DNA from: Lachnospiraceae bacterium
GTDB lineage: Bacteria; Bacillota; Clostridia; Lachnospirales; Lachnospiraceae
Assembly (NCBI GenBank): GCA_017460885.1
Contig: JAFUAB010000038.1
Location: forward strand, 1-32,609
DNA: 32,609 nucleotides
Direction of reading: 5' to 3'
This document shows, piece after piece, positions 18,328 to 32,270 of the stretch. Position 1 is the stretch's first letter, and the number at the start of each line of letters is the position of its first letter. A program made the translations under genes and the position numbers. The notes beneath the pieces are model-generated. The model did not search any database. It was not told where the DNA came from and saw nothing but the letters and a program-made list of their open reading frames with translations.

Positions 18328-19611
18328 TTAATCTTTCAGACATCCGATCGGCACAACATATACTCCGTCTTTTCGCTGATATGCATAACTATCCGTACCA
18401 GACAGCACCATAAGAAAAGAAGGTTCATGCATCCTGGTAGTATCGATCTTATCCGCAAGTTCCTTCAGTGTCTTGGCTCCATGCTCTATCAATGTATTTC
18501 CGCCAAGCTTGATCTCTATAAGGCCATAATCGCCATTATTCAGATGAATAACCGCATCACACTCCAGCCCGCTCTTATCTCTGTAATGATAAAGCTGTCC
18601 TCCGAGTGCATCAGCATATATCCTCAGATCTCTAATACACATAGTTTCAAACATGAGCCCAAATGTATTCAGGTCGTTCATTAAATCTTCAGGATAAACA
18701 CCCAGTGCGGCAGTGGCGATCGAAGGATCAACAAAGTACCTTGTATCAGATGTTCTGACGACTGTTTTTGATCTGAGATTCGGATTCCATGCCGGCAAAT
18801 CCTCAACAACAAAAATCTTTTTAAGCGCATTTACATATGACAGAACCGTATCTTCATCCAATGTCTGAGAATCATTAGCATCCATGTCAGCCTTGAGAGC
18901 AGCATTGCTAACCTGTGCTCCCTGATTTCTCGCATACGAACGCATAAGAAGTCTCGCCCGTTGTTCATTCCTGTTTATTCCATCTACTCTTGATATATCA
19001 TTATTGATAACCGATTCGTAATAATTCAGAGCCTGATCAAGTGCTATCTCCTTATCCTTCTGCAAAACAGCCCGGGGCCAGCCTCCCCTGCAGACAAGAT
19101 ATGATATATCTTCGACACTCAGATTATTTACAGATGCAAGCGACACTCCGGGCTTTTCGTCAAATAGCGCCTTTATACTAACCTCTCCATTGGACTCCCC
19201 GGACTCAAATAAGGACATGGGGCGCATCTTGATCCTCGCATATCGTCCGGTTCCCGAATGTTCCATTTTTGAAATATCTACAGGGACAGACGATCCGGTC
19301 AGAATATACATTCCCTCGGATCCTCCATGATCAACAGCAAACCGGATACTGTCCCACAATGCTGGCGCAATCTGCCATTCGTCAATCAGTCTCGGCAACT
19401 CGCCCGCAAGCAAAACAGAAGGTTTTATCTCAGCCATCCTAAGATTCTGTTCCTTCCTTTCGGGCTCATCCATGTACAATATGCTTGCAGCTGTCTGCTC
19501 TGCTGTTGTGGTCTTTCCACACCACTTGGGTCCTTCGATCAGAACTGCTCCGGCGCTTTTCAGTTTTCTTTCCAAAAGGCTGTCAGCAACCCTCTTCTTG
19601 TAATCATCCAT
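18328..19611 (-). CDS. AAA ATPase with DUF4143 domain
   Basis: 427 aa, the common AAA_14-DUF4143 architecture. Walker A is GPKWCGKTT (27-35), Walker B-like RLIDEWQ (about 75-81), and the sensor region is YILTGSS. The C-terminal DUF4143 domain contains GLECDAVIHLNNGDYGLIEIKLG, resembling a PD-(D/E)XK nuclease-fold core. These proteins are widespread in gut bacteria and archaea; their role is unknown, with defence or DNA transactions often suspected. It is a stand-alone gene. The ribosome site is weak. Upstream is a promoter overlapped by three 23-bp-spaced repeats, suggesting tight control. Confidence 0.9.
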   Translation of the reverse strand: MDDYKKRVADSLLERKLKSAGAVLIEGPKWCGKTTTAEQTAASILYMDEPERKEQNLRMAEIKPSVLLAGELPRLIDEWQIAPALWDSIRFAVDHGGSEGMYILTGSSVPVDISKMEHSGTGRYARIKMRPMSLFESGESNGEVSIKALFDEKPGVSLASVNNLSVEDISYLVCRGGWPRAVLQKDKEIALDQALNYYESVINNDISRVDGINRNEQRARLLMRSYARNQGAQVSNAALKADMDANDSQTLDEDTVLSYVNALKKIFVVEDLPAWNPNLRSKTVVRTSDTRYFVDPSIATAALGVYPEDLMNDLNTFGLMFETMCIRDLRIYADALGGQLYHYRDKSGLECDAVIHLNNGDYGLIEIKLGGNTLIEHGAKTLKELADKIDTTRMHEPSFLMVLSGTDSYAYQRKDGVYVVPIGCLKD

Positions 19612-21669: not shown

Positions 21670-23304
21670 TTATGCGAAAAAATCAGTTTCCTCATTTTCC
21701 ATGATGAAGTCCTGCATCATGTCAAAAGCTTCATTATTTTCATTTTCACATGGTTTCTTTAACATATCCAGAATTCTCTTCCTGTTTTTAATAAGCTCTT
21801 CCGTATCATTGATTGACAGCTCTCTTGTATCTTCACTAAAATGCATTGTTATAGCCAGCTTGTCTTTATATACTATCACTTTATCAACAAAGATATCAAG
21901 GATACGTTGGCGGGTTGCTTTGTCTTCCATATTGCCGGCAAAGCTGTCAAAAAACCTCACTATATCCTCAAGCTTTATCCTGCATTTGAGTCTTAGTTTT
22001 TCTTTCTCCAGCTCTTCTGTTAAAAAGTCTTTCCTTTCCTTAAGTTCCAAGAGTTCGTTCTGGGTAAAGTCATTAAAAACACCATTTTTGATTGCATTCA
22101 TAATGTTCTTTACTTGCCTGTCAACGTCTTTGATCGCCAGTTCAAGAGATTTCTCTAGACTGTCGTTATTAGCATCCTGCGATGTATAGTATTCATAACA
22201 TAAATTAGCAAAAATAATCCGGTTTTCCGGTTTCATTATCAGCTCATCCAATGCATAAAGAACAATCTGCTCTACAGTATCCTTCCTAACATCCTTGAGC
22301 GTACAACTGTGTTTACGTTTTTCTTTGCAGGAATAGTAATAGTGTCTCTTACCCGTATGGCTTTTACCGCTTGTGCCCTGCATTGTAGAACCGCATTCAC
22401 CGCAATATATATGACTGGTAAGCCAAAAATCTTCTATGTTTGCATCAGGATTACTCTTCTTTATTCCACCTTTTCCTCCATGCTTGTTTTCAGCTAACCT
22501 TTCCTGTGCTTTCTCAAACAGTTCATCCGATATCAGGCGCGGTAATCCATCCTGAATAACGATCTGCTCTTCTCCCTTTCCCCAGCGATACTCACCGAGA
22601 TATGTTCTGTTATTCAGGATATGCCGCAGTGAATTAACAACAAAGGAATTTCCTTGTACAGTTTTATATCCCGCCTCGTTTAATTCATTAGCAATTTTCT
22701 GCAGCGGTTTACCATCTGCATATTCCTGGAATATCTTCATAACTATCGGAGCAGTAGCCGGATCAATCTTATACTTAGTATTTCGTTCACCTGTATATCC
22801 CAATATTTTCACTCCGTTGTATAGACAATGTTCAGCGTTGAACTTAAGTCCACGCTTAACATTACTTCTGTGATTAATGATAAAAGTGTGAGCCATGGCA
22901 GCATAGAGTCCCTGCATAGCATATCGTATGCCCTGATCTTCCGGCAGGGGCTCAGCTATAGTCACAAGTTCCACCCCCATATCAAGGAGCATCGCATCTA
23001 TTGCAAACGAGTCATGTATTTCGCGAGATAGCCTGTCAAGCTTCCATGTCAATAAATATGCAGGTCTGCCTGTTCTGGCCTCAACCAACAATGTTTGCAG
23101 ACCTGGCCTCTCCATTGTGGTTCCCGTGATTGCCTTGTCTGTATATGTCTTAACTATTTTAATATTATTCTTCTCCGCATATATCTTGGCTTCCGCAATC
23201 TGTTGATCTATACTTACATCTCTCTGAGCATCAGATGAATATCTGCAATACAGGTATGCTTCATTCCCAGGATTTCTGCGAAATTCCTTAATATGACTTG
23301 CCAT
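21670..23304 (-). CDS. Large serine recombinase (integrase/resolvase family)
   Basis: 544 aa. The resolvase catalytic domain has YLYCRYSSDAQ with nucleophile S23 and LTWKLDRLSREIHD. It is followed by a recombinase domain (RGLKFNAEHCLYNGVKILGY) and a zinc ribbon with CGECG and SCKEKRKHSC, then a coiled coil (about 380-450). This is the TndX/TnpX-like layout that excises and integrates mobile elements at short att cores. The start was placed at the ATG with GGAGG 8 nt upstream; the earlier GTG lies inside that ribosome site. Last gene of the mobilization operon, with its own promoter and palindromic operator. The element boundary is probably just beyond its 3' end. Confidence 0.95.
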   Translation of the reverse strand: MASHIKEFRRNPGNEAYLYCRYSSDAQRDVSIDQQIAEAKIYAEKNNIKIVKTYTDKAITGTTMERPGLQTLLVEARTGRPAYLLTWKLDRLSREIHDSFAIDAMLLDMGVELVTIAEPLPEDQGIRYAMQGLYAAMAHTFIINHRSNVKRGLKFNAEHCLYNGVKILGYTGERNTKYKIDPATAPIVMKIFQEYADGKPLQKIANELNEAGYKTVQGNSFVVNSLRHILNNRTYLGEYRWGKGEEQIVIQDGLPRLISDELFEKAQERLAENKHGGKGGIKKSNPDANIEDFWLTSHIYCGECGSTMQGTSGKSHTGKRHYYYSCKEKRKHSCTLKDVRKDTVEQIVLYALDELIMKPENRIIFANLCYEYYTSQDANNDSLEKSLELAIKDVDRQVKNIMNAIKNGVFNDFTQNELLELKERKDFLTEELEKEKLRLKCRIKLEDIVRFFDSFAGNMEDKATRQRILDIFVDKVIVYKDKLAITMHFSEDTRELSINDTEELIKNRKRILDMLKKPCENENNEAFDMMQDFIMENEETDFFA

Positions 23305-23339
23305 TCTATTCACCTCCGTATAAGGATCTTGTTTAGATC

Positions 23340-23368
23340 AGTATATCACACAAGGTTCTGATATACAA
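23340..23368 (-). promoter_or_regulatory. Recombinase promoter overlapped by an inverted repeat
   Basis: On the minus strand TTGTAT (23368-23363) and TATACT (23345-23340) are 17 nt apart. A perfect inverted repeat GTATATCA (23341-23348)/TGATATAC (23359-23366) covers both boxes. A second hairpin CTGCG-TTATA-CGCAG lies upstream (about 23387-23401). It could be an operator or part of an att site. Confidence 0.7.
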
Positions 23369-23463
23369 ACTACGCGAGAGTAAATATCTGCGTTATACGC
23401 AGTAAGTAAGCCATCTTTTTTAGCAAAATATGCCCACGCTTCACTTGTTTGATCCCCTACCGT

Positions 23464-24222
23464 TTATCTTATAATATCGGCGAATTCATACGTTATACTA
23501 CTGATGAATTTATCGATCTTTTCACCCTTTCCACCCACCAGTCTGTCATTACTGAACACACTGCGCCGGAACTCTTTATAGTACTTTTCAGGTCTATCCA
23601 ATGTATATATGCTGTGGAAAAGGAAAAAAAGCTCAGAATCAAACGAATTACCACTATCAATATAATCATTGATGTGCGATACAAGTTCATCGTAGCTGTC
23701 AAGCATTGACAATACACTCTTTATTTCTCGGATCTTCTCAACACGCTTCTCGTCACCGTCATATACCGGAGTGAACCATAGTTTATTCTGTACTCTTCTG
23801 ATTAGGTCGTTTGAATTGTTCACCTGTTCCCGGGATTCTGGATCCGTCTTCCGCTCAGGAATAACTTTCACCTGTGATGTCGGCTCCGGCTTTTCTTCTT
23901 CTTTGACTACATGAGCAAGCTGTACCTGATCCTGATCTGTGATCGCAGAATCATCTGCGATGTTTTCAACACTTGCATCTTGTATCTCTTCCTGCTGTTC
24001 CTCCACCTGGCTGCTTCCCATTTCGGCTACTGTGTTAAATGCTTTGAAGATATTGTTAAGAGCTTCAAGAGCGGTCACAGATTCATTCGGTCTGGTCTTT
24101 CCCGCGATACCTCGCTCTCTCGCCTCGGTTGCCTCAAGGAGGAATCGGTCTGTATCCGGCGTTGTGTTCTGTGGCAGATCAAGATCAAATGATCTGCTGT
24201 TTTCTGATGTCATGTTACCCAT
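23464..24222 (-). CDS. Acidic hypothetical protein of the mobilization operon
   Basis: 252 aa, rich in Glu/Asp/Gln in the first half (low-complexity QVEEQQEEIQDASVEN, about 72-87), probably disordered. A more ordered second half (about 140-252) has helices containing NDLIRRVQNKLWFTPVY, EIKSVLSMLDSYDELVSH and FHSIYTLDRPEKYYKEF. No membrane segment or metal site. It starts 18 nt after the relaxase stop with GGAG upstream, so it is co-expressed and may be a relaxosome accessory. I do not recognise the family. Confidence 0.75.
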   Translation of the reverse strand: MGNMTSENSRSFDLDLPQNTTPDTDRFLLEATEARERGIAGKTRPNESVTALEALNNIFKAFNTVAEMGSSQVEEQQEEIQDASVENIADDSAITDQDQVQLAHVVKEEEKPEPTSQVKVIPERKTDPESREQVNNSNDLIRRVQNKLWFTPVYDGDEKRVEKIREIKSVLSMLDSYDELVSHINDYIDSGNSFDSELFFLFHSIYTLDRPEKYYKEFRRSVFSNDRLVGGKGEKIDKFISSITYEFADIIR

Positions 24223-24239
24223 AATATCGTTCTCCTTCC

Positions 24240-25502
24240 TTATAATGATTTTTCAAGCTGCCTTTTGTTGCTTAAAGCAAACTCTTCTTCTGCCTGTTCA
24301 TATCTTTCCGTGCTTAATTGTTCCGCTGACAGTCGACGCATGATGTCTTCCGTACCCATGAGAAGCTGACTTACCGCTGTATTGTTCGTTTTCGTTACTG
24401 ATTTTCTTTTTACTGTTTTTTTGCTGCCAGCGGTTTTTACTTTACAATGGTGTTGCGTTTCAGTTAATTCCGTACTTGTAGACATCGCCTGTACTTCTTT
24501 TGCTTTCAGGTATTCCTCATGCAGTTCTTCCCACATCTCCCAGTCAACACTTTCCAGACGGCTTTGCTCATCAAATGCAAAACAGCTTTTACCTTGCTCC
24601 CTCATCCATCTGGCAAAATCTGTTCCCTCTGAGCATTTCTTTTTATTCTGCTCCTGCCAAATTGTTTTTACCGCTTCGGGTCCAAAACTATATCCAAGTT
24701 TATATGATCTCGCTTTCGTGTTCTTAGCCCCGACGGGACAGGATGCGAAATCATACACATAGTGCTCACCGTATTTGGGGCTTATCTTCTTGATGGCCTC
24801 AATCCCTCTGGTCTTCAATTCCGAAAAGAATGTTTTCAGATCAAAGGATTTAATAGCGGCTTCATGGATCCGTTCTTTCATGTCCTCCTTATATGAGTAT
24901 GCCTTTTTCTCAATGAGTACCTGCCTCAGTTCATCTCCCTGCAGTTCCGGATGTTCATTCATTATCCGCGCTGCTTTTTCAGCCTTTGCGCGTTCGGTAT
25001 GGGTCTGTTTGGATTTCAGTTTGCCCCCGTCATCGAGTTCAATATATTTTGCTGCAACGGCATCGATGCCATTACGCACATACTTAAAATACTGCTGTGT
25101 ACGGGTGCATCCTTTATGATCGTTTAAGCTAATATCATTGACTATTGCGTGGCAATGCAGGCACCCGCCTTTCCCGTCCCGCTGGAAGAACAGTGCCGCC
25201 TGCCTGTCGGGATAATAGGTCTTTATAAATTCTCTTACTATGGTATTTGCAATCTCCACATCCTCTTCGTTATTCGGATCCAACTCTTTTTTACTAAATG
25301 ATATGATTATCCGACGTACCTGCACCTTGTGGTTTGCTCTCGCTTTTTTCCAGAGCGGTACCATCTGCTCCGTGTATTTACCGTTAGGGATCATGTTGAT
25401 GGTGGTGACCAGGACATTACGCCCATGCTGTCCCGGCCCCTTTCCCTCAGCATATCTGATGGCATCCCTGCCATTTTTTGAAGCGGTTATCCGGCTATAC
25501 AT
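24240..25502 (-). CDS. Relaxase / mobilization nuclease
   Basis: 420 aa. The N-terminal relaxase domain has an early Tyr (Y2 or Y17, YSRITASKNGRDAIRYAEG) and the metal-binding HxH motif H116/H118 in GGCLHCHAIVND. ERAKAEKAARIM (about 188-199) begins a helical region, and a Lys/Arg-rich tail follows. It nicks oriT and pilots DNA during conjugative mobilization. Start ATG lies inside the end of mobC (16-bp overlap) with GGGGAG upstream. No type IV secretion genes are seen here, so transfer would depend on a helper or on genes outside the window. Confidence 0.92.
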   Translation of the reverse strand: MYSRITASKNGRDAIRYAEGKGPGQHGRNVLVTTINMIPNGKYTEQMVPLWKKARANHKVQVRRIIISFSKKELDPNNEEDVEIANTIVREFIKTYYPDRQAALFFQRDGKGGCLHCHAIVNDISLNDHKGCTRTQQYFKYVRNGIDAVAAKYIELDDGGKLKSKQTHTERAKAEKAARIMNEHPELQGDELRQVLIEKKAYSYKEDMKERIHEAAIKSFDLKTFFSELKTRGIEAIKKISPKYGEHYVYDFASCPVGAKNTKARSYKLGYSFGPEAVKTIWQEQNKKKCSEGTDFARWMREQGKSCFAFDEQSRLESVDWEMWEELHEEYLKAKEVQAMSTSTELTETQHHCKVKTAGSKKTVKRKSVTKTNNTAVSQLLMGTEDIMRRLSAEQLSTERYEQAEEEFALSNKRQLEKSL

Positions 25503-25912
25503 AATACGATCTCCCCGGCTTCCTTTGTTGCCTTCTCCACCCTGCGGGTGATCTCATCGAGTTTCTCTTTGCTTACAAGCATTCCACTAGCGTGCAATGC
25601 TTGCATTTCTCCCGCGTTTACGCGACGTGCCACCTGATTAAAGTTAACCCCGATCCTTCGCAGGTGGTCACGGGTCTCCATTATCGCATTGCCAAGCATG
25701 ACAATGTTACTGTTGATGACCTTTCCCTGCTTCGGATCCACGTACTTTAGACGCCCAAGGTACTTATCCAGTTCGCCACTGGCCGCACACCTTACCACAT
25801 CACTCAATGTAGTGTTATACTCCGTGGCTATGTTGGCCAGCGCCTCCACTTCTTTCTGGCTGAATCTCACAGTTACCGACCTGTCTTTACGCTGTTTCTT
25901 CTCTCCGCACAT
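25487..25912 (-). CDS. MobC-like relaxosome protein
   Basis: 141 aa from the ATG with GGGAGG 9 nt upstream; the longer frame through the oriT-like region is rejected. The N-terminus has a ribbon-helix-helix-like RSVTVRFSQKEVEALANIA. The family signature MLGNAIMETRDHLRRIGVNF followed by NQVARRVNAGE matches MobC proteins, which bind oriT and assist strand opening for the relaxase. It overlaps the relaxase start by 16 bp. Confidence 0.9.
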   Translation of the reverse strand: MCGEKKQRKDRSVTVRFSQKEVEALANIATEYNTTLSDVVRCAASGELDKYLGRLKYVDPKQGKVINSNIVMLGNAIMETRDHLRRIGVNFNQVARRVNAGEMQALHASGMLVSKEKLDEITRRVEKATKEAGEIVLCIAG

Positions 25913-25959
25913 ATTTAATGTCCTCCCTTCTTTATTTTTCCGTACCTGTTTCGCTTCAT

Positions 25960-26016
25960 CCTTGCAAGCAACGACTTTGTTATACAAAGTCGCGCTTGGC
26001 AAGGGGTTTACCCCTT
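25960..26016. other. Candidate origin of transfer (oriT)
   Basis: Immediately upstream of mobC lies a perfect stem CGACTTTG-TTATA-CAAAGTCG (25972-25992) inside longer imperfect arms (CCTTGCAAGC / GCTTGGCAAGG). A second perfect hairpin AAGGGG-TTTA-CCCCTT (26001-26016) follows at once. Paired inverted repeats next to mobC/relaxase genes are typical for oriT; the nick would be expected near CGCTTGGCAAGGGG. The exact nick site cannot be assigned by eye. Confidence 0.6.
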
Positions 26017-26084
26017 TGCGATCCCCGGGTAAGAGCAGCTGCGCCTCTTCCCCGATGTGCTTACCACATCTCCCCATCTCTGCT

Positions 26085-26522
26085 TTAATACTGCCGCATC
26101 TTCTCATGTCCGGGTCCTCCACTTCCTGTAATATTCGGAAGTGTCTTTACCGTACCGGAGCCTTTGTCGGATGCTTTGATCGCGGCAGTATCACTGTCAG
26201 ATACCCTGACAGCTTTACGGGCTCTTCGTTCCTTACGAGCCTCGTTTTTCCGGATTCTGCGCTCCTTGTTTTTATCAATCTCTTCTGCAGAATCCGTATA
26301 TATGTCGCTGATCTTTGTAGCTATACAAGCCCCCAGCAATCTGGCTTCGCAGGCGTTAAGATCCTTTTCTTTAATTATGCTTATAATCGCAGGGCTTTTT
26401 CGGATCTCATCGCATATGGCGTTTATCTGGTTTACGTACTTCATGGTTTCATATTCCCGTTGAACCTTTTCAATTTCCTTTTGTTTTTCTGTAAGTATCT
26501 TTCTTAACTCTTTCTCTTTCAT
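26085..26522 (-). CDS. Coiled-coil hypothetical protein of the mobilization operon
   Basis: 145 aa starting at the ATG with GGAGG 7 nt upstream. The N-terminal half is a charged coiled coil (MKEKELRKILTEKQKEIEKV). The middle is ordered (IICE-free; DEIRKSPAIISIIKEKDLNA). The C-terminal part is very basic (ERRIRKNEARKERRARKAVR, about 97-116) and likely binds nucleic acid. It ends about 70 bp before the candidate oriT and starts 2 bp after the zinc-ribbon gene stop. No family recognised. Confidence 0.75.
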   Translation of the reverse strand: MKEKELRKILTEKQKEIEKVQREYETMKYVNQINAICDEIRKSPAIISIIKEKDLNACEARLLGACIATKISDIYTDSAEEIDKNKERRIRKNEARKERRARKAVRVSDSDTAAIKASDKGSGTVKTLPNITGSGGPGHEKMRQY

Positions 26523-26524
26523 TT

Positions 26525-26758
26525 TTAAGCCTCCAGTTTCTTCCCACACCCCGGGCAGTAACTTATCGGTTCCGTTATCCTGAATGTCTTCCCGGATAAC
26601 CTGTACCCGTTCATCGTCACCTCAATGACCGGTTTATTTTCACGGAGCCTAAGATATGCTGATACATTCATCAGTCCCATGATCCCGCAGTCAGCATCTC
26701 CATCTACCAGCGGAAAAGCTATTCCGGATTTGCTTATGTTCTTACAATATTCACACAT
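26525..26758 (-). CDS. Small zinc-ribbon protein
   Basis: 77 aa with MCEYCKN at the N-terminus and SYCPGCGKKLEA at the C-terminus, so two CxxC pairs that probably bind one zinc. The middle is a small beta domain (MNVSAYLRLRENKPVIEVTM). Similar short zinc-ribbon proteins occur in phages and conjugative elements of Clostridia; the function is unknown. GGAGGG 7 nt upstream of ATG. First gene of the mobilization operon, behind a long structured leader. Confidence 0.8.
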   Translation of the reverse strand: MCEYCKNISKSGIAFPLVDGDADCGIMGLMNVSAYLRLRENKPVIEVTMNGYRLSGKTFRITEPISYCPGCGKKLEA

Positions 26759-26821
26759 GGCATACCCTCCAATCTTATATAAGTCTGTTTGTATTTCTTA
26801 ATTGTTTTTCCCAAAGAACAG

Positions 26822-26935
26822 AAAAAGCCCCGACATAGATTGCTCTACATTCAGGGCTTTGTATCAAGTGAGATATGGAATGTCATATCATTCGGGGGCG
26901 ACCCGGTTTCCTTGTTTTCTATTCTCTTGGTTTAC
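26822..26935 (-). promoter_or_regulatory. Attenuator-like leader of the mobilization operon
   Basis: The minus-strand leader contains AAAGCCC (26860-26854) pairing with GGGCTTT (26830-26824), followed by TTTTT-C: an intrinsic terminator before the first gene. An upstream segment GCCCCCGA (26899-26892) can instead pair with TCGGGGC (26833-26827), the terminator 3' arm. GAATG...CATTC and GATATG...CATATC hairpins lie between them. The two pairings exclude each other, as in attenuators. The trigger is unknown. Confidence 0.55.
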
Positions 26936-26939
26936 ATAA

Positions 26940-26984
26940 AGTATACTACATTTATAATACATTTGCAAGCTTTTTCTTGCAAAT
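26940..26984 (-). promoter_or_regulatory. Mobilization operon promoter with palindromic operator
   Basis: TTGCAA (26968-26963) and TATACT (26945-26940) on the minus strand are 17 nt apart. A perfect 9-bp inverted repeat ATTTGCAAG-CTTTTT-CTTGCAAAT (26961-26984) covers the -35 box, a likely operator. Confidence 0.7.
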
Positions 26985-27000
26985 AATCCAGTATTTTCAA

Positions 27001-27780
27001 GGCTTCGCGGCACTTCTTATCTTCTAAAAATCCTCTCATTTATGAGCAAAAATCTACAGGATGTCTCTGTTGGTTCCTTCAGTTTTTAAAAAAAATATTT
27101 TTATGGTACCATCCCCGGCAGCTTCGCAGGTCTGCCCGAGCTCCCAGACCAATCATCGTTTAGTTCCACCAAGAAACTCTTTAAAACACTCCTCACAAGG
27201 TGGGATTTGATCACCACTGCCCCTCAAGGGATATAAGAACGCTCCGACTAAATTCACCTTCACCCTGTTCTCCCCAAAGGAACCGAAAGGGCTCGCAAGC
27301 GGGTTTGGTTCATTAAGTCTGCGCTGTTCCTTTGGTTTTAGCCAAGCATCTGCTCCTATATCCTTTTATATGGCAGCAAGGGATACCCTCGCCTTTATTC
27401 GTTGTGCTGATGTTTCCTGCCAAAGTGCCATATCTTCCATTGCAATCATGCTCTGACAAGTCACTTTAAGATAATCCCGGATCCCTTGCAGGAATCAAAC
27501 TGTAACCGCAGCCCTTAGCTTTGTTCCGGTCAGAGGACGCAGGTCGATACCCTGATTGCCCCTTTGCTTGATACTGATATCGTCTACGAGGTGTTTCTGC
27601 CTTTCATGTTCGTTGTGATGTTCTGCACTTCTTGCTTATGGCATGGTACGCCGTGATCCGTCGTATGGATGCAAGGATACGGATTTTTGATAGTTCGGTA
27701 AAGCATAAACTCTAAAAAATCCTATCAAGCAGCACAGCTGTCCTTGCATCTGCCGTCTCTCTATGTACCCGATATGTCAA
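27001..27780. ncRNA. Candidate large structured non-coding RNA or complex control region
   Basis: About 780 bp with no convincing gene on either strand but many long exact pairings: GGTCTG/CAGACC (27129/27145), CCAAAGGAAC/GTTCCTTTGG (27274/27326, 10 bp), ATATGGCA/TGCCATAT (27368/27426, 8 bp), GATGCAAGGA/TCCTTGCATC (27668/27741, 10 bp) and TTGATAG/CTATCAA (27687/27722). A 5' TAAAAATCC (27025) and a 3' TAAAAAATCC (27713) compete for GGATTTTT (27681). Size and mobile-element context resemble the ROOL/GOLLD class of large RNAs, but I cannot confirm membership. The minus strand is richer in purine loops; the transcribed strand is unsettled. Confidence 0.4.
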
Positions 27781-27831
27781 GCTCGAAGGAGCAAACATAA
27801 AAACAACTCACACAACGAAAGGAGAATCACC

Positions 27832-28122
27832 ATGTACGTAGACATCAGTTCAGTATCTTACAACGCAAAGAAAAACGAGGCAATCATCGAAGGCATCGAC
27901 CTTGACAGCGTTCTCTTAAACGACTGGCACAAAGAATTTTCAGATAAGGCCGAGGTTACCTTCAAGTTTGATCTTACGGGCAAGGGACCGAGGATTTATC
28001 TCTACAAGCTCCTTAAGAGTCAGATAAAAGCTGATTGCAAGACCATGGAAGAGATGCTTATGGCACTTACGGGCAAGATTACTAACATCAGCTCGAACTT
28101 CATCGACAAGGCCGAGGGTTGA
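27832..28122 (+). CDS. Small hypothetical protein of the mobile element
   Basis: 96 aa. ATG preceded by AAAGGAG with 7-nt spacing; the earlier in-frame ATG is rejected. The protein begins MYVDISSVSYNAKKNEAIIE, continues with alternating beta strands and a helix (TMEEMLMALTGKI), and ends with FIDKAEG. No Cys, membrane or known motif. Its stop lies inside the loop of a strong terminator. I do not recognise the family. Clear gene signals make it a probable real gene, located downstream of the long structured region. Confidence 0.75.
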   Translation: MYVDISSVSYNAKKNEAIIEGIDLDSVLLNDWHKEFSDKAEVTFKFDLTGKGPRIYLYKLLKSQIKADCKTMEEMLMALTGKITNISSNFIDKAEG

Positions 28123-28175
28123 TCCCTCGGCTTTATGCCAAAGCGGATATGCCGGAGCAGATGCTTCGGCTTTTT
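28111..28175 (+). terminator. Two tandem terminators
   Basis: GCCGAGGG-TTGAT-CCCTCGGC followed by TTTAT (28111-28135), then GCCGGAGC-AGAT-GCTTCGGC (one G-T mismatch position) followed by TTTTT (28151-28175). Confidence 0.85.
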
Positions 28176-28332
28176 CTGCGGCACCCCCCAAGCTCCCCGG
28201 CGCTTAATGCATGCACCTTGCCCGGTTCCGCAGACTCCTCCCCGTGATAAAACGGATGGAAACATATAGATATTTCCTGTGGGAATTCAGATATTTTGCT
28301 GCTCGGGAATGCTTCTGAAATTTAAATCTCAT

Positions 28333-28361
28333 TTGACAGAATTGGCCGAAAATGATACCAT
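28333..28361 (+). promoter_or_regulatory. Promoter firing antisense to the small toxin gene
   Basis: Perfect TTGACA (28333-28338), 17-nt spacer, TACCAT (28356-28361). Transcription would start near 28368 and run through the 3' end of the minus-strand toxin-like transcript. There is no plus-strand gene behind it, which fits an antisense RNA. Confidence 0.6.
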
Positions 28362-28370
28362 AAAGACGGA

Positions 28371-28404
28371 TAAAAAAGGATGCCACCGGCCAAACGGTCA
28401 GGCA
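28371..28404 (-). terminator. Terminator of the toxin-like transcript
   Basis: On the minus strand TGCC...CCG pairs with CGG...GGCA around a short loop (arms 28404-28395 and 28389-28381), followed by TCCTTTTTT. Confidence 0.7.
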
Positions 28405-28464
28405 ACCCTTGAATAACGAACTAAACGAGTTTAGCCGTCCTCAAATCGACCAAGACCGGGGCGG

Positions 28465-28578
28465 CTATTCTCGTGTGTTGCTTTCGTCATGGCGCTTATC
28501 TCTCCCGAGCCTGTAGCCAAGGGCGAAGGCTGAGATTGCAACGCCGATGACGGCGATGAATTCCGATAAACTAACCAT
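28465..28578 (-). CDS. Small hydrophobic type I toxin-like peptide
   Basis: 37 aa, too short for normal ORF lists. It has a perfect AGGAGG ribosome site 8 nt before ATG. The peptide begins MVSLSEFIAVIGVAISAFAL and continues GYRLGRDKRHDESNTRE, that is, one membrane helix and a charged tail, like holin-like/type I toxins of Firmicutes. Its transcript has a 17-nt-spaced promoter (28733-28761), a 148-nt structured leader, and a long 3' region ending at 28371, opposed by an antisense promoter. Known type I toxins depolarise the membrane and are silenced by antisense RNA; application here is inference. Confidence 0.75.
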   Translation of the reverse strand: MVSLSEFIAVIGVAISAFALGYRLGRDKRHDESNTRE

Positions 28579-28584
28579 TTGACT

Positions 28585-28761
28585 ACCTCCTTTCTGGTGA
28601 GACTAGGCATTACTGCCAGTACTACAGTTCCAGTCGGAGGTTTTTACACATCTGAATATTTTAGACCTCCGACAAGTCGGAAGCCTAACCGTCCACCGCG
28701 CTTTCGCGCTAAAGATGACACCCTTTCGAAAAAGTATAACATCAGCATTGATCCTTCGCAA
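28585..28761 (-). promoter_or_regulatory. Toxin promoter and Shine-Dalgarno-sequestering leader
   Basis: TTGCGA (28761-28756) and TATACT (28738-28733), 17 nt apart. In the leader ACCTCC (28641-28636) can pair either with the upstream GGAGGT in a perfect 9-bp stem GTCGGAGGT/ACCTCCGAC (28673-28665/28641-28633), or with the toxin ribosome site GGAGGT (28590-28585). The two states would expose or hide the start. Confidence 0.65.
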
Positions 28762-28973
28762 TATGATTATCGGCGAAGTAAATCACAGAATACAATCCAG
28801 AATACAATCATACGCAAATCCGCGCGATCCATGTCTTTGTACTCTCCGATAAGAATCGTATCCATTTCTTATTATTCGGATCACAACTATCAAATCAGAA
28901 TATTCCAATAGTATTCGAGAGCTATCATGACGTGTTTAAGCGAAGTGACAGAAGAATAAGTCCGGATTAGTCA

Positions 28974-29174
28974 TCAGCCGGAACTATTGAAAATATCACC
29001 TCTTCCCGTACTGGCTGCTTTGTTTTACGCTACACCGCCCCAGAGAACCTGACAAGGGGCAGGCGCTGTCCATTCGGACCCCTTGTCAGAACCTCCGTGA
29101 CGGTGTGATACAGCGTAAAAGCAGCCAAAACACACGGGAGGAGGTGAATCATATTTTCATAGAGTTCCGGCTGA
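28974..29174. repeat. Giant 201-bp imperfect palindrome
   Basis: Outer arms TCAGCCGGAACT/AGTTCCGGCTGA (12 bp perfect). Moving inward there are TGAAAATAT/ATATTTTCA, CACCTC/GAGGTG, CCCGT/ACGGG, GGCTGC/GCAGCC, TTTTACGCT/AGCGTAAAA, CACCG/CGGTG and a central CTGACAAGGGG/CCCCTTGTCAG (11 bp, 29049-29059/29079-29089). No gene lies inside. The stretch 28,763-28,973 before it shows no feature I can support. It may be a single-strand origin, a structured RNA, or a recombination or terminator element. Confidence 0.8.
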
Positions 29175-29231
29175 GAAACTTAAACCAGATAATACGCAAG
29201 AGAGCTAACGCTCTCAGAAAAGGAGAAGGCA

Positions 29232-30149
29232 ATGAAAAAGATGAAATTTGAAGAATTTACAAGCGCTGTAGTTGAAAAGATAAGGGAATATCTCCCGGAA
29301 AGCTTCGCAACGGCCAGTGTGGATCTTCAGACCGTTACTAAAAACAATGATCTGAAGCTGACCGGACTGACGATCAGGAGCGCAAACAGTAATGTCAGTC
29401 CTACCATCTATCTGGAGCAGTTCTTTGATCGTTATCAGAACGGCGAAGAGATGAGCAGAGTTCTTGAAAACATTGCAGATATCAGGATCCGTCATGAGGT
29501 CAGCGATGTTTTTGACGTTAATCAGATCACAGATTTTGGGAGAGTAAAAGGAAAGATCGTTCCTCGTCTCATTGGAAAGAAATGGAACGAGGAACTATTG
29601 AAGGATAGGCCGTATACAGAGATTGCAGATCTGGCTGTTACATATCATATCCTGCTTGGAGAAGACGGCGATACATCCGCAAGTGCAGCAGTCAGTAATT
29701 CCCTCATGGCATCATGGAATACTGATGTGGAGGAATTACACAGACTTGCGCTGAACAACTTGCCTGTATTGCTTCCGTCTACATTCCAGTCAATGAGTGA
29801 TGTACTTGGAAATCTATTCGGCTACACTCCCGAAAATGAGAATGCAGATGCAATAAGCTACGCAGACGATAAAATGTTTGTTCTTTCGAACTCACATAGA
29901 GTAAATGGTGCTGCTGCACTGCTGGATAGGGAAATCATGAAGTCCATCGTTGATAGATTGGGAGAAGATTTTTTTATCTTGCCCTCAAGCGTTAGTGAAA
30001 TCATCATTGTAAAAGCAGATTCGTACATGGATACGGATGTCCTAACAGCAATGATACAGGAAGTCAATGCCGCTCAGGTTGCTCCGGAAGAAAGATTGAG
30101 CGATCATCCGTACAGATACTCCTTGGAAGAAGGGCTTATTTCAATCTGA
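29232..30149 (+). CDS. DUF5688 family protein
   Basis: 305 aa. Typical family segments are KNNDLKLTGLTIRS, SNVSPTIYLEQFFDRYQNGE, the central IADLAVTYHILLGEDG and the C-terminal LYVLSN-like MFVLSNSHRVNGAAALLD. DUF5688 proteins are abundant in Lachnospiraceae and Ruminococcaceae mobile elements; the function is unknown. No catalytic motif stands out. ATG with GGAG 6 nt upstream; a hairpin GAGAGC-TAAC-GCTCTC directly precedes the ribosome site. It lies inside a cassette bracketed by two large palindromes, followed by the 102-aa gene after 44 nt. Confidence 0.85.
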   Translation: MKKMKFEEFTSAVVEKIREYLPESFATASVDLQTVTKNNDLKLTGLTIRSANSNVSPTIYLEQFFDRYQNGEEMSRVLENIADIRIRHEVSDVFDVNQITDFGRVKGKIVPRLIGKKWNEELLKDRPYTEIADLAVTYHILLGEDGDTSASAAVSNSLMASWNTDVEELHRLALNNLPVLLPSTFQSMSDVLGNLFGYTPENENADAISYADDKMFVLSNSHRVNGAAALLDREIMKSIVDRLGEDFFILPSSVSEIIIVKADSYMDTDVLTAMIQEVNAAQVAPEERLSDHPYRYSLEEGLISI

Positions 30150-30193
30150 CATATGAGCTGAGCTAACGGCTATACGGGCAGAAAGGTGGATTT

Positions 30194-30502
30194 ATGACTA
30201 ACGAACAGATTATCGCGGATATCGCAGCAACTATATATGGAGAAGATACGGTTATGACCATGCTTGCGACCGGAGAAGATATACCGCTTCATACCCTGAG
30301 GGGCTGGACGGCTCGCGGACCTTACCGGATAAAGAAAGGTGAACATGGCTTAGAAACAAAGCTGTGGAAAAAGCGGAAAAGAAAAGATAAGGACGTTTCC
30401 GAAGATGAGAATGAAACCACTGAGGAATCGACAAACAAAGATTTTTATATGGCTAAGGCTTTTCTGTTCAGAGCTGATCAGGTTGAGATTGTGACGGATT
30501 AA
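30194..30502 (+). CDS. Small ArdC-like / ssDNA-binding-like protein
   Basis: 102 aa. The segment LHTLRGWTARGPYRIKKGEH and later FYMAKAFLFRADQVE resemble the first part of ArdC-type antirestriction/ssDNA-binding domains (GWxxRGxxVxKGE ... F). Between them is a Lys/Arg then Glu-rich low-complexity insert (about 58-80). No metalloprotease part is present. ATG with GAAAGGTGG upstream. Co-directional with the DUF5688 gene; the two share a GAGCTAACG-type leader sequence. Assignment is by motif resemblance and tentative. Confidence 0.65.
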   Translation: MTNEQIIADIAATIYGEDTVMTMLATGEDIPLHTLRGWTARGPYRIKKGEHGLETKLWKKRKRKDKDVSEDENETTEESTNKDFYMAKAFLFRADQVEIVTD

Positions 30503-30518
30503 AGATTTACTCCACGCT

Positions 30519-30630
30519 CCGCTTGACACATTGAACCCACGCCCGTGATAAGGGCAGGATTGCTGCAGGCTCACTTTTTAATGATCCTGCCCCGGCTCCT
30601 TATATCACGGGCTTACCTTGTGTCAAGCGG
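30519..30630. repeat. Second large palindrome closing the DUF5688 cassette
   Basis: CCGCTTGACACA/TGTGTCAAGCGG (12 bp, 30519-30530/30619-30630), GCCCGTGATA/TATCACGGGC (10 bp, 30541-30550/30603-30612) and GGCAGGAT/ATCCTGCC (30553-30560/30584-30591) nest around a T-rich loop. TTTAC and GTAAA lie outside. It follows the 102-aa gene by 16 bp, so it may also terminate transcription. Confidence 0.8.
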
Positions 30631-30736
30631 CTTTCGCGGCGTAAACAAGCTGGTTTGAAAAGTTTTCATTTGATACATTCTATACTTCAAAAGCATATTT
30701 TAATCTCATTCCGATATTCAAAAAACCCAAAAAATT

Positions 30737-30745
30737 TGGTATAAT
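30737..30745 (+). promoter_or_regulatory. Extended -10 promoter of the replication gene
   Basis: TGG-TATAAT (extended -10, 30737-30745) with only a weak TTCAAA about 17 nt upstream, 62 bp before the initiator start. Confidence 0.55.
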
Positions 30746-30807
30746 TATGATGATTCTGTAAGGCATATGCAAGACATACATAATAGTATGCTTAAGAGGT
30801 GAATAAG

Positions 30808-32052
30808 ATGGAGAATGAGATTCCACTTCCCGATGATTACGGTTTAAAATCTTCAGATAATACAATACATAAGGCTAAAAAAGCAAACAAACCAAGCACC
30901 AATCTGCTCATCAACGATATAAGCGAATTATCCAGAAACGATATACTGCTATCGGATGGATATATGGATAAATTACCGGATCGCCTTGATATTATATCTA
31001 TGGATGAATATATGTCTGCCCTTAGATTCGACAGAAAAACCAAATCTCCTTATCTCTTAAGACTAAAAGACGGGGTACAGATGGATTTTGATCAAGCAGA
31101 AAATGAATTCTCTCTGGATGGTTATTATGGTAGCAGCATAATCGCAAACGCAAATGCACTCTCTGATAATAACATCAATGATCTGGATCTTTTACTCTTT
31201 ACTATGATATTTACCCTTGTGGCTAATAAATACGCAGGAAACTTTTCAAAGCTTAAGTTGGATCCGGAAGCAGTGAAAACATATACCCGTACCTATCCGG
31301 TCACTGTAGATATCAGAGCGTTAGCCGAAACAATTGGCTTGAGAAAAAATGATAGCAAATCTACTATAATAAAGCTGATCGACAACATCAAGGCATTTGA
31401 GAGAGTTGTCGGTATTCTACCGGCAGTAGGTAATATGTCATTAGACATAAGTCCTGCATTGGTATGGCAAGGATATAATGAGAAAGGCAAGCAAAAATAT
31501 ATATCGTTTGACTCTCCATACCTCTGCCGCCTTATATACCGCATGATGTGTTCCCTGTGTAAAAAAGATCCCAACAGCAAATATACCCTTGAAGACGTTT
31601 CCGAATGGAAAACTCCGAGCACGAGAAATAATAACGGACGCACAAGCAGTGAGGCAAAAGGACCTATAAATGTAAGATGTTTGAGTACGATAGTCGGCGC
31701 AAGGAGCAAACGTGCGGCATATATTACAACATTACTGACAAACACTATTGTTAAAGCGGGAAATCCAAGAAGGGGCGAACCAGAGATCGAGGCTCATATT
31801 ACTGCACAAACTCTCCTCAAGGATAAATATCCTGAATATTATAATTCATTAATAAATGATAAATGGCCGAACAGAAATCTAAGGACCGTATTTGCTCATG
31901 TTAAAGAATATCTGGAAAATCTGACTGATATCAGTACTGCTTACATTAATTTCAGATATGATGAATTAAGGGCTCCGAGGATTAGTACACTTAACAATAC
32001 TATTTATCGTTTTTATCATAAGGGACGGAAAAAGCAAGCCCAGAATCAATGA
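30808..32052 (+). CDS. Probable plasmid-type replication initiator
   Basis: 414 aa, starting at the ATG with GAGG 8 nt upstream; an in-frame GTG three codons earlier lies in the ribosome site. The central region has VDIRALAETIGLRKNDSKST and IIKLIDNIKAFERVVG, a winged-helix-like segment. A long C-terminal half (about 230-400) has KYISFDSPYLCRLIYRMM and a basic end RFYHKGRKKQAQNQ. No clear named Rep domain was recognised. The initiator call rests on gene size, basic helical character and, above all, the 21-bp iteron array and hairpin-rich AT-rich DNA directly downstream. Confidence 0.6.
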   Translation: MENEIPLPDDYGLKSSDNTIHKAKKANKPSTNLLINDISELSRNDILLSDGYMDKLPDRLDIISMDEYMSALRFDRKTKSPYLLRLKDGVQMDFDQAENEFSLDGYYGSSIIANANALSDNNINDLDLLLFTMIFTLVANKYAGNFSKLKLDPEAVKTYTRTYPVTVDIRALAETIGLRKNDSKSTIIKLIDNIKAFERVVGILPAVGNMSLDISPALVWQGYNEKGKQKYISFDSPYLCRLIYRMMCSLCKKDPNSKYTLEDVSEWKTPSTRNNNGRTSSEAKGPINVRCLSTIVGARSKRAAYITTLLTNTIVKAGNPRRGEPEIEAHITAQTLLKDKYPEYYNSLINDKWPNRNLRTVFAHVKEYLENLTDISTAYINFRYDELRAPRISTLNNTIYRFYHKGRKKQAQNQ

Positions 32053-32136
32053 TTAATGTTGCATATTTTGATTATTTTATACGTAATACATCGTCTGACA
32101 TACGAAAATACTTCCAGAATGTGTATTTTATAGTAA

Positions 32137-32199
32137 TTTTTATCGTTTTTTTGTGTGTTTTTATCGATTTTTGTGTTGTTTTTATCCATCATCTATGTA
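32137..32199. repeat. Iteron-like tandem repeats (putative replication origin)
   Basis: TTTTTATCG at 32137 and 32158 and TTTTTATCC at 32179: three direct repeats at an exact 21-bp period, the first two also sharing the following TTTTTGTGT-like half. The third extends to TTATCCATC, close to a DnaA box. The DNA is very AT-rich and begins 85 bp after the initiator gene. Confidence 0.65.
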
Positions 32200-32270
32200 C
32201 GAACAATTTATTAAAACCCTATATTTTACTGCATTTCTGGCATATTTTTTTCCTTTAATATATCTAATAT

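Follow-up and report, generated by a model that had tools for sequence, protein, structure and literature searches.

We showed that a mobilisable element of a Lachnospiraceae bacterium carries, directly in front of a gene for a 96-aa protein, a conserved and structured non-coding region (positions 27107-27829 of the window, the term used here for the whole stretch of 32,609 nucleotides that was analysed). Given its position, conservation, fold and gene association, all of which were established in this analysis, the region is probably a control region of establishment genes resembling EGeRS1 (establishment gene regulatory sequence type 1) of Bacillus plasmids. It is composed of a branched 5' domain of 107 nt, a middle part and a long-range hairpin of 232 nt. 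A preliminary description had placed a gene-free candidate RNA at 27001-27780. This stretch is real, conserved and gene-free (according to the ORF list of the window, 26987-27762 is devoid of any ORF of at least 60 aa, and none touches it), but its borders had to be moved, as the conserved element begins 106 nt inside it and extends 49 nt past its end.

The upstream neighbours of the element are mobilisation genes. A relaxase with a MobA/VirD2 nuclease domain (24240-25502, minus strand; Pfam PF03432, 42.2 bits, cut-off 24.6) is accompanied by a MobC/NikA-like mobilisation protein (25487-26122, minus strand; MobC 24.5 bits, cut-off 23.2; NikA-like 25.4 bits, just under 27). Both genes lie on the opposite strand and are transcribed away from the element, and a serine recombinase gene (21670-23313) is located beyond them. 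Inverted repeats at 26820-26930, between the mobilisation genes and the element, are likely to represent oriT; they are also present in the second copy of the element in the same genome (contig C4). On the downstream side, the plus strand encodes, in order, the 96-aa protein (27832-28122), a DUF5688 protein (29232-30149; Pfam PF18941, 319.8 bits) and a 102-aa protein resembling the N-terminal domain of ArdC (30194-30502). The ArdcN score of the latter (PF08401, 17.6 bits) is below the cut-off of 22.6, and the protein found in the same place on plasmid pNP21 of Butyrivibrio fibrisolvens, annotated as ArdC-like, exceeds it with 23.8 bits. The AlphaFold2 model of the 96-aa protein (pLDDT 85.8) had no match in the PDB at E <=0.001 (best 1.1), and the model of the DUF5688 protein had none at this threshold in the PDB and BFVD. 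DUF5688 was not found in our literature search.

The association with these genes is constant. Twelve long-form loci (the window, L007-L015, L020 and L048) were scanned over 3,500 nt downstream of the element, and in all 12 the 96-aa gene and/or a DUF5688-sized ORF comes next. The 96-aa gene is present in four of them (the window, L008, L010 and L020) and the DUF5688-sized ORF in 11 (all except L010), while a further ORF of 100-131 aa follows DUF5688 in ten (not in L010, nor in L020, where the stretch ends). The Pfam score of DUF5688 was above the cut-off in all six newly tested loci. Among four of the short follower proteins, that of L048 scored above the ArdcN cut-off and those of L007 and L013 below it, and that of L012 gave no ArdcN match. 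DUF5688 itself is found in 279 of 299 genomes of the family and therefore cannot serve as a specific marker of establishment. Nor is the leader a general companion of DUF5688, because 25 of the 30 best-scoring DUF5688 loci have no strong fold upstream (z above -6, with 20 mononucleotide shuffles per locus and start codons assigned automatically, some of them wrongly), which rules out giant hairpins in front of all such genes. Strong upstream folds were found at L079 (the same place as L021; z -10.3) and at L064, L075, L057 and L063 (-6.0 to -8.5).

The 5' domain (27107-27213, plus strand) consists of a closing helix (27111-27115/27202-27206) and three arms, of which the first is short, the second has a nearly invariant loop and the third is in two parts; its fold includes the arm GGTCTG/CAGACC (27129-27134/27145-27150). 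The covariance model R1, built from seven sequences without the window and C4 copies, matched the window over 27107-27206 with 59.1 bits and the C4 copy with 55.1 bits. In an alignment of 22 sequences, which was fitted to the model and thus favours its structure, 92.8% of the cells pair and 17 of the 25 pairs change on both sides. None of 500 shuffles came up to it in any of the five measures, and sliding the structures by 1-3 columns lowered the pairing to 31-49%. Wobble and A.C pairs are both rare (alignment and inspection by eye). The copy in the window is itself no better folded than its shuffles (z -0.2, plus-strand RNA) and has a degenerate third arm. Judging from Rfam, the 5' domain represents an undescribed structured family.

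The middle part (27214-27590, plus strand) is conserved in the C4 paralogue and folds no better than expected by chance (z 1.4 and 0.8 as RNA, 0.2 and 0.4 as DNA). It contains a perfect 10-bp pair (27274-27283/27326-27335) and the only terminator-like site detected in the element (27299-27322). It is followed by the long-range hairpin (27598-27829, plus strand), which extends to the start of the 96-aa gene and has z-scores of -3.1 and -2.5 (RNA, plus and minus strands) and -3.4 and -3.9 (DNA, plus and minus strands; 60 shuffles); those of its relatives range from -3.6 to -18.6. Its inner helix GATGCAAGGA/TCCTTGCATC (27668-27677/27741-27750) has a CAAGG/CCTTG core, and the Shine-Dalgarno sequence AAAGGAG (27818-27824) lies in its 3' arm, opposite CCTTT at 27600-27604. 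Folded as a whole (27107-27831), the element shows no extra stability as plus-strand RNA (z 0.03 versus 20 shuffles); as DNA, the z-scores are -2.2 (plus) and -2.4 (minus).

A second long-range hairpin (28994-29150, plus strand), with an inner CAAGG/CCTTG helix and the arms TCACCTCTTCCCGT/ACGGGAGGAGGTGA (28996-29009/29134-29147), is situated upstream of DUF5688 and is also present in the C4 paralogue; its z-scores are -9.0 to -10.5, and it is built like the first hairpin. Among the relatives of the element, the hairpin of the DUF5688 type was aligned in seven sequences, in which 85.0% of the cells pair and 28 of the 76 pairs change on both sides. The covariation value is 0.264, compared with 0.133 in shuffled alignments (reached in 0 of 500) and at most 0.108 in slid versions, over which the structure has the advantage of being the fold of one member; one of the five measures (further pair types) does not beat the shuffles. 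Covariation in homologues, named beforehand as a check on the conserved structured non-coding element proposed for this mobile element of Lachnospiraceae, was thus found in both the 5' domain and the DUF5688-type hairpin, and the proposal is upheld.

Two details of the pairing pattern fared less well. Exact pairings of at least 8 bp within 27001-27780 are in excess (nine, whereas 15 dinucleotide shuffles gave 3.1 on average and never more than 7), as are those of at least 6 bp (71 versus 49.3), but the excess is modest, and the five pairings of 6-10 bp originally quoted are in themselves no evidence. Similarly, the strands said to compete for one partner, TAAAAATCC (27025-27033) and TAAAAAATCC (27713-27722), and the partner GGATTTTT (27681-27688) all exist, but relatives have not kept the choice: the first strand reads GAAAATCG in the paralogue, and L010 retains the local partner only. 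We therefore dropped the strand choice as a feature of the element.

The element is known from few genomes. The C4 copy has 76% identity over 685 bp of an 881-bp query, and a search of the same genome revealed only this copy and that of the window; the second leader (28994-29150) was not among the matches. A 31-nt word (27120-27150) occurs in seven stretches of a species-genome collection, all from Butyrivibrio or Lachnospiraceae; plasmid pCY186 of B. proteoclasticus matches as well, and another copy is present on plasmid pNP21 (27.7 bits). The locus of genome G384 was retrieved via the 96-aa protein and not via the motif; upstream of a distant homologue (36% identity) it has retained a hairpin (z -10.5 to -14.3) as well as a 5' domain, which R1 matched with 25.2 bits (E 9e-6). 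Among 397 genomes of the family, R1 detected two and the 96-aa protein three, the own genome being counted in both. The R1 survey undercounts, because its filters were stricter and G384 was not reported; despite this undercount, the element is rare. Viral contigs were negative for the arm pattern and a less strict pattern as well as for both proteins (96-aa and DUF5688), and phages gave no match or only chance words at E >=1.

The pattern of the second arm was found in seven of 392 genomes of the order (the own genome included), which belong to two genera. The second genus carries a compact form of the 5' domain (62-79 nt), intergenic and without a hairpin. Since this form stands alone in another genus, the 5' domain need not belong to the function of entry genes. 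The compact domains (L034-L045, genus g153) are dispersed, with up to three exact-pattern copies per genome, and are often antisense to neighbouring ORFs, flanked on either side by mechanically called ORFs of the opposite strand; they may represent a small repeat of a mobile or regulatory nature. In the counted alignments A3, A5 and A6 and in one further G.T/A.C set, L014 was left out as a near copy of L009; L036 and L039, which are decayed or truncated, were retained in A5.

The preliminary description had thought of a free-standing large RNA, namely ROOL, GOLLD or a class of similar RNAs hitherto undescribed. The size, the gene-free stretch, the setting in a mobile element and the rumen-type bacteria speak for such an RNA, and ROOL and GOLLD are likewise large non-coding regions of mobile elements. 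However, no Rfam family reached the gathering threshold anywhere in the window, and neither ROOL nor GOLLD appeared at E <=5 within 26500-29300, where the only hit was to a human lncRNA model, unrelated and well under its cut-off (29095-29232, minus strand, outside the element); the identification with these two families is thus refuted. Moreover, the middle part has no structure above chance, the end of the element coincides with a gene's ribosome-binding site and its gene association is constant, a setting different from that of ROOL and GOLLD. A structured element is indeed present, but free-standing action is doubtful in view of this reach into the ribosome-binding site, the gene association in 12 of 12 loci, the EGeRS1 architecture and the lack, in the stems of its relatives, of the G.U excess seen for RNase P in the same count, and we consider a large RNA of this kind very improbable. 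Rfam searches of 12 relative loci gave one match to skipping-rope, located outside the motif in L044, together with four matches below threshold, one of them to RT-17 (L020, 1458-1538; 27.8 bits, cut-off 40.4). No tRNA or tmRNA was found in the window.

The closest known thing to the element is EGeRS1. According to the report on plasmid pLS20 (PMC8708921), EGeRS1 sequences of the pLS20 family and of pBS72 are 420-750 bp long, contain inverted repeats and are located directly before the ribosome-binding site of five pLS20 operons, one of which includes ardC. In the same report, no sigma-A promoter was detected in them, read-through was blocked in the native orientation only, and the authors allow for a mechanism acting through ssDNA or RNA (PMC8708921). 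The layout is similar: the element, of a size within this range, is a region of several hundred bp with inverted repeats that runs directly up to a ribosome-binding site (27818-27824, with the ATG at 27832) of likely entry genes, one of them for a possibly ArdC-like protein, has a 3' hairpin more stable than its shuffles with a CAAGG/CCTTG helix and no promoter-like site inside, and shows A.C pairs at least as commonly as G.T pairs on the mRNA-sense strand. The 3' part of EGeRS1-B is more stable (z -9.0 to -11.3 versus -2.5 to -3.9 for the window hairpin).

There are also differences. The element occurs in a different class of bacteria and with other genes (the 96-aa protein and DUF5688), and its GC content (0.47 versus 0.43 in the surroundings, taken as 21670-32258) shows a small excess; the values for EGeRS1 are 51.4% versus 37.7% in pLS20 (PMC8708921). 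The EGeRS1 copies described there share 62-95% sequence identity, and several alike occur on one element (PMC8708921), whereas two dissimilar leaders are present here. Sequence similarity was confined to words of 11-12 nt (E >=0.14), and R1 had no match in nine stretches of the pLS20 family (best 13 bits, E 0.58). Since neither the sequence identity nor the set of alike copies was found, we do not count the element as a member of EGeRS1. In favour of an EGeRS1-like control region we can thus cite the gene association, the covariation, the joint retention of domain and hairpin in G384, the CAAGG/CCTTG helix and the layout. Against it stand the lack of sequence similarity, the small GC excess, the sub-threshold ArdcN score, the weak fold in the window, the wide occurrence of DUF5688, the stand-alone compact 5' domain and a promoter-like site on the plus strand (26931-26958).

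This site (TTTACA-16-TATAAT), located just upstream of the element, emerged from a consensus scan, and its -10 is not retained in the paralogue. A minus-strand site (26940-26968, TTGCAA-17-TATACT), probably belonging to the mobilisation genes, corresponds in the paralogue to TTGCAA-17-TATAAT (alignment by eye). Within 27107-27829 the scan revealed no promoter-like site, and none lies wholly inside either hairpin (27598-27829 or 28994-29150) on either strand; a minus-strand site (29177-29148) overlaps the last three bases of the second hairpin.

From these observations and the pLS20 work we infer a sequence of events in which silencing in the resident element gives way to transient expression after entry, with a part for each domain. 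In the resident element, the inverted repeats would keep the 96-aa, DUF5688 and ArdC-like genes silent. No conserved promoter would be aimed at the entry genes (the lack of a promoter being taken from pLS20), upstream read-through would be blocked depending on orientation (also taken from pLS20), and the Shine-Dalgarno sequence would be held in an arm of the long hairpin. Conjugative entry might then lift the block briefly, so that the proteins produced could protect and settle the incoming DNA.

Alternatively, the element might be an ordinary RNA leader, folded in the plus-strand mRNA. The Shine-Dalgarno sequence would then be hidden by the hairpin, and the 5' domain would act as a sensor or attenuator before a terminator, until a signal opens the structure. 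The Shine-Dalgarno sequence indeed lies inside the 3' arm in the window, in L008, L010 and L020 and in both hairpins of L021; moreover, a hairpin followed by a T-run is visible past the 5' domain in DUF5688-type copies (by eye), and a sequence-conserved arm surrounded by strong covariation is reminiscent of aptamers. Against this explanation are the few G.T pairs on the plus strand (discussed below) and the frequent antisense position of the compact 5' domains relative to the mechanical ORFs beside them, and we judge it clearly less likely than an EGeRS1-like control region, although it is the foremost alternative. Hiding of the Shine-Dalgarno sequence was rejected as a general function, because DUF5688 has a Shine-Dalgarno sequence of its own and that of the DUF5688-type hairpin serves no consistent ORF (by eye). 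A conserved small ORF between this hairpin and DUF5688 was also discarded, its frames being broken by one-base indels (by eye).

Two further observations concern these hairpins. In L007, L009, L011-L015 and L048 (more weakly in L012), a conserved stretch CGCTCCCCTCCAGAAAAGCT..AGAATCTTGAAAGCA, whose frame is not kept, is present between the hairpin and DUF5688; it repeats part of the hairpin 3' arm (GAAAGCACATT) and is a possible alternative partner. In L021 (genome G252), a long hairpin with a Shine-Dalgarno sequence in its arm is found at both the 96-aa homologue and DUF5688; R1 had no match in this 3.2-kb locus.

The mismatches of the hairpins bear on the question of which strand folds. Folding with G.U pairs forbidden, which favours neither strand, yielded 1096 Watson-Crick pairs in 15 hairpins, with 23 single A.C and five single G.T mismatches on the plus strand, many of the hairpins being related and most of the A.C mismatches coming from the related DUF5688 type. 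When columns were counted (pairs in which fewer than half of the cells are Watson-Crick were excluded from the medians and kept in some other counts), the median G.T/A.C numbers were 9/15 for the DUF5688 type (seven sequences; A.C more frequent in six of seven reference folds), 12/22 for EGeRS1 (34 copies; 34 of 34), 4/6 for the window type (only three sequences; one of three references) and 31/17 for RNase P of 23 relatives (0 of 23). The departure from 1:1 is not significant within either set (p 0.31 for the DUF5688 type, 0.12 for EGeRS1). Compared with RNase P, p is 0.044 and 0.013, respectively, and 0.006 when pooled, with columns and related sequences that are not independent. Minus-strand energies are lower by at least 4 kcal/mol in 14 of the 15 hairpins, largely owing to composition; they were dropped as proof of strand, because the z-scores of both strands are alike. 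Wobble is therefore scarce on the mRNA-sense strand, unlike in RNase P, so that folding may take place in DNA or on the other strand. The missing wobble excess that would be expected of plus-strand RNA is only suggestive of this, and no proof.

Such an imbalance, in which A.C pairs correspond to G.T pairs on the other strand, would fit ssDNA hairpins that correspond, in Gram-positive bacteria, to Frpo promoters or to single-strand origins, the template strand folding and recruiting RNA polymerase when single-stranded. The likely entry genes adjoin the mobilisation genes, and Frpo/ssi promoters of plasmid leading regions are similarly folded non-coding DNA before anti-defence and entry genes beside mobilisation functions (PMC11541004). 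Unlike these, the hairpins analysed here contain no -35/-10 by consensus scan, and their strand orientation is probably opposite. The authors of the pLS20 report discard ssDNA promoters on the ground that it is the non-template strand which is transferred (PMC8708921). The strand imbalance is significant only against RNase P and in sequences that are not independent, and the three window-type hairpins, given their medians and single A.C-rich reference, give a mixed picture; the lower minus-strand energies are likewise no argument for this reading. By analogy with RP4, the transferred strand of the window element is presumably also the non-template strand. Single-strand origins of rolling-circle plasmids are long hairpins, as are those described here, and small Lactobacillus plasmids contain an inner hairpin that is similar; the present hairpins, in contrast, stand before protein genes. 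Taken together, we regard ssDNA hairpins of this type as unlikely.

A paired CAAGG/CCTTG helix is present in seven of eight hairpin families, EGeRS1 included; the fair count is six of seven, because the Lactobacillus plasmid family was found through that hairpin itself. The next unrelated paired 5-mer, CCTTT, opposite the Shine-Dalgarno sequence, is found in five of the eight. Single members lack the CAAGG/CCTTG helix (L008 and L012), and L020 has it only with the arms exchanged. As an extension that we regard as unlikely, these hairpins might form one family of folded ssDNA switches with this common helix, selected on the template strand and not on the mRNA. In conjugative elements of bacteria as far apart as Bacillus and Lachnospiraceae, these switches would control when entry genes are first expressed, the 107-nt branched domain being a separable module that has also spread alone. 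The early expression of protective genes after entry of Gram-positive conjugative elements is largely an open field, as is, according to the pLS20 report, the mechanism of EGeRS1 (PMC8708921). A second set with the EGeRS1 layout, an unlike sequence and strong covariation makes this mechanism testable through its structures, the shared helix and the strand test.

Some minor observations were also made. A hairpin close to the inner one of the DUF5688 type (CAAGGG..TTGCCCTACGGCGTCTCG..CCCTTG) is present in small Ligilactobacillus plasmids (L046, 2933-2975; L047, 1735-1774) and was found by blastn in 18 records. Between the 96-aa gene and DUF5688, the minus strand (28465-28578) contains an ORF for a hydrophobic 37-aa peptide (MVSLSEFIAVIGVAISAFALGYRLG...) preceded by a Shine-Dalgarno sequence, and a similar stretch exists in the C4 copy; we take this peptide to resemble the holin-like toxins of type I pairs. 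Finally, an AAA/DUF4143 ATPase encoded on the minus strand (18328-19611) matches the PADLOC candidate defence model PDC-S01 with 216.7 bits.
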